A DNA stretch of 64,000 nucleotides. Source: Rhodospirillaceae bacterium. GTDB taxonomy: Bacteria; Pseudomonadota; Alphaproteobacteria; UBA6615. Position numbers and translations under genes: made by a program. The stretch spans positions 62,001-126,000 of the forward strand of contig JABIVD010000022.1 in NCBI GenBank assembly GCA_018667335.1. The letters run 5' to 3'. The notes under the pieces are model-generated. The model had not been told where the DNA came from and ran no database searches. It saw only the letters and a list, made by a program, of their open reading frames with translations. Below, one piece after another: positions 11,977 to 42,621 of this stretch (within the stretch, counting starts at the first letter, position 1; each line of letters starts with the position of its first letter).

Positions 11977-12876
11977 CTAGAAGCGGGTTTCCGCGACTTT
12001 CCGTAGCAGGAAGTCCCGGAAAACCGCAATCCGCTGCGAACTCCGCATCTCTTCGGGATAGACGAAAAACGCATCGTTCCCGGGTCCCTCGAGCTCCGGC
12101 AGGATTCGCACCAGGTTCTTCGCCTCGCGGGCCAGGAAGTCCGGCAATCCGGCCACGCCGACCCCGGCCTCGACGGCGCGGAACATGCCGTAGAGGTTGT
12201 TCAGGGTGAGGACCTTGCGAGGCTCCTCATTTGTGGCGTCGCGCACCGCGTTCAGCAGCCAGTTGATGTTGGCAACCGGCATCGCCTGATCTTCGCCATA
12301 GACGATCAGATCATGGTTTGCGAGATCGCGGACTTTCTCCGGCATGCCACGGTTCTGCAGATATTCCGGTGATGCGAACACATGGGTGTGGACACGGGTG
12401 AGTCGGCGCTGGATCAGGTCGGCCTGGGTCGGCGGGGTGAGCCGGATGGCGCAATCGGCCTCGCGCATCGAGACATCGAGCTCTTCATCGGTGGTGATCA
12501 GGTTCACCTCGATATCCGGGTACATCTCTATGAACTCGGTGATACGTGGCGTCAGCCAGAGCGAACCCAGCCCGACTGTCGTGGCGATCTTCAGAGGGCC
12601 TTGCGGCTGTTCCTGGGAATCCGTCAGCCGGGCCTCGACCATGGTCAGCTTGGCGAAGACGTCATGCACTGTGCGATAGAGCAGTTCGCCTTGTTCGGTC
12701 AGGATCAATCCCCGCGCGTGGCGATGAAACAGCCGCGAACTCAGGCTCTCCTCAAGGGAGCTGATCTGACGGCTGACCGCAGACTGGCTCAGATGCAGGG
12801 TCTCACCCGCATGGGTGAAGCTGCCAGCATCTGCGACAGCATGAAAAATCCGCAGTTTGTCCCAATCCATGGCCAT
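11977..12876 (-). CDS. LysR-family transcriptional regulator
   Basis: This 299-residue regulator has a classic N-terminal winged helix (WDKLRIFHAVADAGSFTHAGETLHLSQSAVSRQI is the start of it) and a LysR effector-binding domain (about 95-290, e.g. IATTVGLGSLWLTPRI). ATG at 12876 is preceded by a G-rich stretch 9-14 bases upstream, and an alternative ATG lies two codons later. It starts about 50 bases after trxB stops on the same strand, so trxB and lysR probably share a transcript, a pairing seen in other alphaproteobacteria. The effector and targets are unknown. Confidence 0.9.
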   Translation of the reverse strand: MAMDWDKLRIFHAVADAGSFTHAGETLHLSQSAVSRQISSLEESLSSRLFHRHARGLILTEQGELLYRTVHDVFAKLTMVEARLTDSQEQPQGPLKIATTVGLGSLWLTPRITEFIEMYPDIEVNLITTDEELDVSMREADCAIRLTPPTQADLIQRRLTRVHTHVFASPEYLQNRGMPEKVRDLANHDLIVYGEDQAMPVANINWLLNAVRDATNEEPRKVLTLNNLYGMFRAVEAGVGVAGLPDFLAREAKNLVRILPELEGPGNDAFFVYPEEMRSSQRIAVFRDFLLRKVAETRF

Positions 12877-38085: not shown

Positions 38086-38844
38086 TTGGAATTCTTGCCT
38101 GCCGATATCGATGCGACGGCCGCCGTCGCGCTCGTCGCCGCGACCTTCATCGGCAATATCATCTCCGGCATTATGGGCGTCGGCGGGGGGATCATCCTGC
38201 TGGCGGTCATGGCCACTCTGATGCCGGCCGCGGCGATCATCCCGATCCATGGCATTGCGCAGCTGGGGGCCAACATCTTCCGGGGCACCATCCAGCGGGC
38301 CCATATCGACTGGCTGACCTTCGTTTGGTTTGCCATTGGCAGCGTCGTCGGCGTGGCCGTGGGTGGCAGCATCGTCGTCACGCTCCCGCCCGATATCCTG
38401 CGCGCCGGGCTGGGGTTGTTCATCCTCTACGCGGTCTGGGCGCCGCGGCTGAAATTCGTCAGTGAAGGCAATGTGATCACGGTGTTCGTCGGCGTTGCAT
38501 CGAGCATCCTGACCATGTTCTTCGGCGCGACAGGGCCCTTCGCGATGGCGCTGCTCAGCCAGCGTGGCTACACGCCCCAGGGGCTGGTTGGCACCCATTC
38601 GGCCTGCATGGGTGCGCAGCATGGCCTCAAGATCGTCGTCTTCGGGATCCTCGGGTTCGCATTTTCCGAATGGCTGGGGCTGGTTGCAATGCTGCTGCTG
38701 GCCTCGCTGGCGGGCAGCCTGATCGGGAGCTATGCACTTCGCCGGATATCCGCTGGCGCCTACGCCATCGTCCTGAAGGTGATCCTGACGGCCCTCGCAG
38801 CGAACCTGCTGGCCGTGGCTTTCGGGATCTACAGCATCACCTGA
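38086..38844 (+). CDS. TSUP family transporter (TauE/SafE-like sulfite exporter)
   Basis: This 252-residue protein has about eight hydrophobic helices in two similar halves, with the TSUP motif SGIMGVGGGIILLAVM near residue 27 and its counterpart MFFGATGPFAMALLSQ near 145. TSUP permeases export sulfite, sulfoacetate or similar anions; the substrate here is unknown. The start is TTG 38086 with CCGGAG ten bases upstream. It begins right after the tRNA gene and precedes the selenoprotein candidate. No sulfur pathway gene is adjacent. Confidence 0.85.
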   Translation: MEFLPADIDATAAVALVAATFIGNIISGIMGVGGGIILLAVMATLMPAAAIIPIHGIAQLGANIFRGTIQRAHIDWLTFVWFAIGSVVGVAVGGSIVVTLPPDILRAGLGLFILYAVWAPRLKFVSEGNVITVFVGVASSILTMFFGATGPFAMALLSQRGYTPQGLVGTHSACMGAQHGLKIVVFGILGFAFSEWLGLVAMLLLASLAGSLIGSYALRRISAGAYAIVLKVILTALAANLLAVAFGIYSIT

Positions 38845-38983
38845 TAAGCGCGGTTTTCGCGATAACCATACGCCTGGTGTCACAAGTCATTGATTCCCCG
38901 GTCACGGGTCGGGCATTGGTCGATGCCCCATATGGGGTGTAGGGTTCGGCTCGGCCGATTAACGGCCAGAAAGAGGGGTAAGC

Positions 38984-39628
38984 ATGAGTTTACAGGAAAA
39001 GCTTGCGGAGATTAGTGCCGCCGGCGCGAAGCGAATGCCTGAGGAAGTGCGCGCGACGATGGGCAAGGCGACCCAGGAATTGCGCGAGTCCGGCATTCTG
39101 GACCGCACCATCAAGGTGGGCGACAAATTGCCGGCCTTCAGTCTCACAAACGCCAACGGCGAAATGGTGAATTCCGCCGACCTGCTGTCCAAGGGAGCTG
39201 TCGTCCTGACGGTGTTCCGCGGCCACTGGTGACCGTATTGCAATGCAGAGCTGTATGCTATGCGCGATATCGTACCCGCACTCGACGAAGCCGGCGCCAC
39301 CCTGGTTGCCATCACCCCTCAGCTCGTCGAGCACAACAAGGCCATGACTGAAAAGCACGGCCTGAATTTTGAAATGCTTTCCGATCCCGGACACGGCTAT
39401 CTGGCCGAGCTCGGTCTCAAGTTCGAAATTCCGCCGGAGGTCAAAGCGATCTACCAGGGATTCGGGCTCGATATTCCGGGCACGAACGGCGACGACAGCT
39501 GGACGCTGCCGATGCCGGGCCGGATCGTTGTCGACAGCAGCGGCGTTGTCCGCGCGACGGACATCGACCCGAACTACGCGTCACGGCCGGAGCCGGAGAA
39601 GACGCTGGCGGACGTGCAGGCCCTGTAG
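38984..39628 (+). CDS. Peroxiredoxin-like (AhpC/TSA) family protein, candidate selenoprotein with Sec at codon 83
   Basis: The frame starts at ATG 38984 (ribosome binding site AGAGGGG) and reads VGDKLPAFSLTNANGE, VVLTVFRGHW, then TGA at 39230-39232, then PYCNAELYAMRDIV and the rest of a peroxiredoxin-like protein to TAG 39628 (214 residues). Cys relatives read FYRGxWCPYCN, so the TGA replaces the peroxidatic Cys, giving UPYC. Thioredoxin-fold similarity continues without frameshift after the TGA (PGRIVVDSSGVVRATDI). A SECIS-like hairpin follows directly. The enzyme should reduce peroxides or disulfides using the Sec/Cys pair. Without Sec insertion only an 82-residue fragment would form. Sec genes (selA, selB, selC, selD) are not in this window. 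Confidence 0.88.
39234..39264 (+). promoter_or_regulatory. SECIS-like hairpin directly after the in-frame TGA
   Basis: The RNA from 39234 to 39264 folds as a hairpin: CGUAUUGC and AUGCA on the 5' side pair with UGUAU, GC and AUGCG on the 3' side, with one bulged A and one U-U mismatch. The apical loop GAGC is at 39248-39251, 15 bases past the TGA, and begins with G. A small loop with an early G, about 16 or more bases from UGA, is what bacterial SelB recognises. The hairpin overlaps coding sequence, as bacterial SECIS elements do. Confidence 0.7.
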
Positions 39629-39660: not shown

Positions 39661-39694
39661 CCCCATCTGCGGTTCACCCGCGGATGGGGTTTTG
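39661..39694 (+). terminator. Rho-independent terminator after the selenoprotein candidate
   Basis: CCCCATCTGCGG pairs with CCGCGGATGGGG over 12 base pairs with one G-U wobble and a short loop, followed by four T. It lies about 32 bases after the stop codon. Confidence 0.85.
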
Positions 39695-39746
39695 TCGTTA
39701 TGGGGGCAGCGCGCGATCGGTACGCGCGTGACCGGCGCATGGGGGG

Positions 39747-40730: not shown

Positions 40731-40929
40731 TTGGACGCCTCAGTCGTGTACTGCCGGGTATCACATGTTGCTGAACGCGGACCATGGCACTCATAGGGTT
40801 AAGTTCCGGTAAACCCACGGCATTGAACAGGCGCTTGAAAGCGGGGAAATGCAGCGCGATTCCGGGGATCTCGATTTTGGGTGTCACGCGGTTTTGCTAG
40901 GATATGATGTGCATGCACGGGAGCACGCC

Positions 40930-42621
<1,692 letters not shown>

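Follow-up and report, generated by a model that had tools for sequence, protein, structure and literature searches.

Does the TGA at codon 83 of a peroxiredoxin-like reading frame end the protein, stem from a sequencing error, or encode selenocysteine (Sec)? The question arose from an earlier note on a 64,000-nucleotide stretch of an alphaproteobacterial contig (the window, taken at its full length), which proposed a candidate selenoprotein with an overlapping SECIS-like hairpin. The comparisons below indicate that the TGA is very probably read as Sec and that the locus is a genuine Prx-like UxxC selenoprotein gene.

The reading frame and its surroundings

On re-reading, the limits of the frame, the position of the TGA and the number of sense codons beyond it (131) were as first described (Table 1). 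The frame runs MSLQ...VFRGHW-TGA-PYCNAEL...DVQAL-stop, and the TGA is its only internal stop. Similarity had been said to continue unbroken past this codon; indeed, the match to PF00578 (AhpC-TSA) spans it, covering residues 45-191 (E 3.7e-24; 85.5 bits against a cut-off of 26). The standard list of open reading frames confirmed that ordinary gene callers end at residue 82 and miss the gene, and a conserved active-site selenoprotein would thus be annotated as fragments.

The gene looks monocistronic, preceded by a Shine-Dalgarno-like sequence of its own and followed by a hairpin resembling a terminator. A mechanical terminator scan gave another, weaker site, and a promoter scan found none. The conserved neighbours (the TauE permease, the acyl-CoA ligase and a flavin reductase) are local synteny among close relatives and point to no functional partner.

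Table 1. Features of the locus (window coordinates) and of related loci (genome and contig coordinates)
Feature	Position	Strand	Remarks
Very probable selenoprotein gene, AhpC/TSA-family fold	38984..39628	+	214 residues, then TAG stop
Putative Sec codon (TGA) for residue 83, opening the UxxC motif	39230..39232	+	25 homologues have TGA; every Cys relative has Cys
Cys86, second position of UxxC	39239..39241	+	Aligned with the peroxidatic Cys of peroxiredoxins
Pro178, candidate cis-proline that would face a CxxC site	39515..39517	+	In the nearly invariant LPxP loop preceding a late strand; conserved in alignment
Probable ribosome-binding site AGAGGGG	38972..38978	+	5 nt 5' of the ATG; read from the sequence
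Likely intrinsic terminator	39661..39695	+	Stem 39661-39672/39678-39689 (12 positions, one mismatch), then TTTTGT; by eye
TauE/SafE-family permease, upstream neighbour	38086..38844	+	Kept beside the gene in two close relatives
AMP-binding acyl-CoA ligase, downstream neighbour	40849..42621	+	Still downstream in five relatives
Corrected SECIS-like hairpin	39244..39264	+	Stem 39244-39251/39257-39264, G-A mismatch 39248/39260, loop UGUAU 39252-39256, 19 nt after UGA
Alternative hairpin of the earlier note	39234..39264	+	Loop GAGC at 39248-39251; cannot form together with the corrected hairpin; not favoured
Second Prx-like TGA gene	L072 about 12423-12860; G000 contig C5:160922-161188 and beyond		
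Third candidate selenoprotein	L073; G000 contig C42:20466-20936	-	
Tandem Sec gene copies	L024 1501-3055; G006 contig C11:4727-6281		
Cys homologue with TAG	L100; G319 contig C114:8586-9221		
Decayed syntenic remnant	L082 about 1393-1721; G002 contig C18		
Sec gene G208b, nested in a Cys clade	L124; G208 contig C1:10791-11417		

Conservation of the TGA and the selenocysteine machinery

Sixty genomes were sampled around the window's genome (G000; 62 contigs, 96% complete), and an alignment query was then run against 386 genomes from the class. Among the 60, the window's genome and nine others have full-length homologues interrupted by TGA alone, and the query added eleven further TGA genomes. 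The collected Sec genes number 25, and in each the TGA lies at one identical column, which never holds TAA or TAG; independent assemblies at 92-94% identity have the same TGA, and TGA homologues reach down to 55% identity and beyond. These 25 homologues exclude a chance TGA. The expectation that Cys relatives have Cys at this column also held, the codon being TGC or TGT in the 23 class-wide Cys homologues returned by the same 386-genome search. The motif is W-U-PYC in the 25 Sec genes and W-C-PYC or PFC in the 23 Cys genes. Trp82 (TGG), directly before the TGA, is invariant, as is Cys86 in a 27-sequence alignment. Values of dN/dS were 0.06-0.27 before the TGA and 0.06-0.19 after it, and purifying selection is equally strong on both sides.

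Two further loci were noted in this survey. In the same-genus genome G006 the Sec gene is duplicated in tandem; both copies have TGA, and they share 94% and 80% identity with the protein of the window. In G319, a genome with no selB match, a Cys homologue has an in-frame TAG five codons ahead of the Cys, likely reflecting a pseudogene or a base-call error.

The search of the genome for Sec machinery, which the earlier note had proposed, found all four components together on contig C5, at about 153.8-166.3 kb. SelA (E 1e-161), SelB (E 9.6e-140) and SelD (E 5e-87) each matched their profiles above the curated cut-off, and the tRNA-Sec scored 71 bits, over its gathering score, and was classified by ARAGORN as SeC with anticodon TCA. 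The SelD match sits in a 743-residue frame with an N-terminus resembling an NADH dehydrogenase-type flavoprotein; assigned by eye, it looks like the Ndh-SelD fusion type described earlier (PMC2398784). Sec-containing formate dehydrogenase was considered as the carrier of Sec use in this genome and rejected: the sole formate dehydrogenase alpha match above cut-off (contig C50:44342-46396) has no in-frame stop, and Sec use is therefore seemingly not based on the usual Sec-FdhA.

The Sec cluster itself contains, between selB and the tRNA-Sec and selD genes, a second Prx-like gene with an in-frame TGA (FYRGHW-TGA-PYCRRQL); similar TGA genes were found in many relatives. A third candidate selenoprotein, SLSW-TGA-PYCIVQ, is apparently exported, having a signal-like N-terminus, and a hairpin (CCAGGC-GGUC-GCCUGG) follows its TGA on the 3' side.

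SelB scored above cut-off in 21 of 21 TGA genomes tested, compared with 5 of 27 Cys-only genomes (Fisher p 3e-9, uncorrected for relatedness). Sec had been called rare in free-living alphaproteobacteria. This does not apply to the window's bacterial family, where selB was present in 20 of the 24 genomes sampled; elsewhere in the class 4 of the 36 sampled had the gene.

Against this background the other readings of the TGA can be weighed. An error of base calling or assembly in an ordinary Cys peroxiredoxin-like gene would require a single substitution, TGA being one change from TGC and TGT, exactly the codons of the Cys relatives. Such an error is vanishingly improbable given the recurrence of the TGA in independent assemblies and across the homologues, the presence of Sec machinery, and SECIS codons that are frozen only in TGA genes (see below).

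Alternatively, translation could truly stop at the TGA, as it does at the TGA ending the upstream TauE gene, leaving an 82-residue truncated protein followed by a pseudogene or by a re-initiated frame, for which an open reading frame of 122 aa from the ATG at 39260 would be available. The invariant active-site Cys86, however, falls between the TGA and that ATG, selection is no weaker after the TGA than before it, no homologue substitutes another stop codon at the column, and the gene has decayed in a genome where selB was not found (G002, see below), all of which render a real stop highly improbable. The conserved column, the co-occurrence of TGA with selB and the low dN/dS on both sides thus exclude, for practical purposes, base-call error and simple truncation.

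UGA is also decoded without Sec in some lineages, through near-cognate insertion of Trp or Cys or through a change of the code, and codon 83 might be read likewise. This route is exceedingly improbable here, since the relatives have Cys and not Trp at the column, beside the invariant Trp82 codon, tRNA-Sec, SelA, SelB and SelD are all encoded in the genome, and the TGA tracks selB.

The proposal of a selenoprotein is therefore strongly supported by the machinery, the homologues with TGA, the Cys column and the TGA-selB association. The outcomes that had been named as speaking against it were a genome lacking Sec machinery together with a miscalled base, or a column without Cys; the machinery is present, 25 homologues have TGA, and the relatives have Cys.

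The hairpin downstream of the TGA

An overlapping SECIS-like hairpin does follow the TGA, as the earlier note had claimed, but the one drawn there, with loop GAGC, was mis-registered and breaks in homologues. Ensemble folding of the window's sequence, a check that had been suggested, gave a pairing probability of 0.98 for the corrected hairpin, whose UGUAU loop begins four bases further on, and 0.01 for the GAGC-loop hairpin, and the corrected form was the more likely of the two in 24 of the 25 Sec genes. It is also the consensus fold of a 13-gene alignment, and 85% of its cells are paired, compared with 74% for the hairpin first drawn. The latter can be formed in the window (12 pairs, two wobbles, one mismatch, one bulge; -9.1 kcal/mol), and its apex pairs show a few two-sided changes, above most shuffles, in the 25-gene alignment. 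Among the 13 closest Sec genes, however, all 12 pairs are kept in only three, and 9 or 10 in the rest. Its loop begins 15 nt after the TGA, a spacing described as expected for a SECIS that in fact falls just outside the 16-37 nt published for most bacterial SECIS elements (PMC13188914). The GAGC-loop hairpin is probably not the SECIS, and that a Sec protein is made here by means of it is improbable.

The corrected hairpin is marked by its conservation. The loop reads U-G-[U/G]-A-N in 25 of 25 Sec genes. At codons 89-93 synonymous identity between pairs with the same residue was 0.87 among Sec genes and 0.42 among Cys genes (elsewhere 0.44 in both), and in a scan of 13 genes the seven-codon windows over the hairpin ranked first of 206 for synonymous conservation. 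Of its 8 stem positions one is a G-A mismatch in the window, and six others likewise have G-A at one position; the MFE is -12.6 to -13.3 for stretches of 45-46 nt. No two-sided covariation was found in this stem, its core being nearly invariant in sequence. Compared with shuffled sequences, folding energies were unremarkable (z -0.3 to -1.2) and support no hairpin; the evidence for a hairpin is instead that of conservation. With its UGUAU loop and 19-nt spacing, the corrected hairpin agrees with the published bacterial SECIS model, which has a loop of 3-9 nt, a G at loop position one or two, mostly with G or U after it, a stem of 4-16 bp and an MFE of at most -7.5 kcal/mol (PMC13188914).

We infer that SelB would bind this hairpin. 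In the proposed mechanism, SelA and selenophosphate supplied by SelD would yield charged Sec-tRNA(UCA), which SelB would bring to UGA codon 83; recruitment of SelB by the hairpin would let the ribosome read through to the 214-residue protein. Insertion of Sec at codon 83 is predicted from comparative sequence evidence.

Loss of the system may be visible in G002, a genome of the same genus (87% complete) in which no SelB profile match was present. There the syntenic position behind the TauE gene is occupied by a remnant whose N-terminus is missing, whose frame is broken and from which an internal stretch has been lost. It has TTT-TGG where the Sec genes have TGG-TGA, and at the SECIS codons that the Sec genes keep frozen it has drifted to GAG CTA TAT GCA CTG. 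A remnant of this kind is to be expected once Sec decoding is lost, incompleteness of that genome being a possible alternative.

A tree of 52 proteins placed 24 Sec genes in one clade adjoining a small Cys clade; another Sec gene, G208b, was nested within a Cys clade with strong support, a position that requires at least two changes between Sec and Cys. The SECIS core of G208b is nearly the same as that of the main clade (GAGCUGUAUGCU) and the same as that of G208a, a distant paralogue in the same genome, which suggests that G208b may have gained Sec and SECIS jointly. Near the site the two paralogues match at 43 of 60 bases, against about half elsewhere, so both a short gene conversion and convergence are possible; constraint on the protein at the active site contributes to the identity near the site. 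We tentatively suggest that the Sec form arose at least twice in alphaproteobacteria, and that G208b may have acquired Sec and SECIS together, by a short gene conversion from the Sec paralogue of its own genome or by strict convergence. With homologues of both the Sec and the Cys form, one decayed copy in a genome where selB was not found and perhaps a second origin of Sec, this family offers a natural experiment on the gain and loss of Sec and SECIS.

Fold, active site and known relatives

The AlphaFold model (mean pLDDT 95) matched AhpE/PrxQ-type peroxiredoxins over residues 41-214 (Z 21.7 and rmsd 1.4 over 150 residues to AhpE), residues 1-40 forming extra helices. The description of the protein as peroxiredoxin-like thus stands for the fold and not for the place of the Sec, which occupies the threonine column rather than that of the peroxidatic Cys. 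When aligned to PrxQ-type proteins, Sec83 matches the Thr of PxxxTxxC, Cys86 the peroxidatic Cys and Arg79 the Pro; the site reads R79-GHW-U83-PY-C86, with the canonical Pro and Thr absent and the Cys kept. The family profile also matched ResA-type oxidoreductases (CxxC), and the site is thus a thioredoxin-like UxxC carried by a peroxiredoxin-like fold. None of the NCBIfam models scored above its own cut-off, NF040769 (SelL-related redox protein) reaching 27.5 bits against 120.

The predicted product would combine a thioredoxin fold of the AhpE/PrxQ type with an active site Sec83-Pro-Tyr-Cys86, in which Sec83 would stand in for the peroxiredoxin threonine and Cys86 would hold the position of the peroxidatic Cys. 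Like thioredoxin-like enzymes with UxxC, it would most likely carry out thiol-disulfide (or peroxide-driven thiol) redox by way of a selenylsulfide between Sec83 and Cys86, and on motif and fold a thiol-disulfide oxidoreductase role of this kind is moderately probable. The protein might instead act as a true peroxidase, Cys86 attacking the peroxide and Sec83 resolving, as its fold (Z 20-22 to the AhpE/PrxQ type) and the alignment of Cys86 with the peroxidatic Cys would allow. Such an activity is rather unlikely, since Arg79 and Sec83 stand where the catalytic motif has Pro and Thr, and no clear counterpart of the peroxiredoxin-motif Arg emerged from the alignments.

Work on the Sargasso Sea in 2005 described a Prx-like selenoprotein family in which a thioredoxin-like UxxC stands in for the Prx motif (PMC1088965), and 'Prx-like 1' (pfam00578, UxxC, 225 sequences) followed from the Global Ocean Sampling (GOS) in 2008 (PMC2398784). 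In reviews the family appears as 'Prx-like thiol:disulfide oxidoreductase', a high-confidence prediction of unclear function (PMC9312934, PMC13188914).

Several known systems share part of this architecture. The Sec-peroxiredoxin of the Eubacterium acidaminophilum type (TxxU) has the AhpC/TSA fold and an active-site Sec, but its Sec stands for the peroxidatic Cys, whereas that of the window's protein lies three residues earlier and Cys86 is kept. PrxQ/BCP and AhpE share the fold and the position of Cys86; the window's protein differs in having UxxC/CxxC and in lacking the catalytic Pro and Thr. With ResA/TlpA-type thiol-disulfide oxidoreductases it shares the CxxC site and a family-profile match over the active-site region, but no signal peptide was seen in it and the fold search placed peroxiredoxins higher. 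The AhpC/TSA selenoprotein UxxS (cd02970 / pfam13911) and SelL (UxxU) have a related Prx-like fold with Sec first in the motif, and differ in the second motif residue, which is Cys86 here. The closest likeness is to the Prx-like UxxC family: pfam00578, UxxC in place of the TxxC/TxxU of peroxiredoxins, widespread Cys homologues and a bacterial SECIS after the UGA. The window's clade is set apart by being alphaproteobacterial and by its SECIS core GAGCUG-N-A-N-GCU, the likeness being one of sequence features. None of the gene's features contradicts known rules, and by those sequence features it is a further member of a family already described, since 2005.
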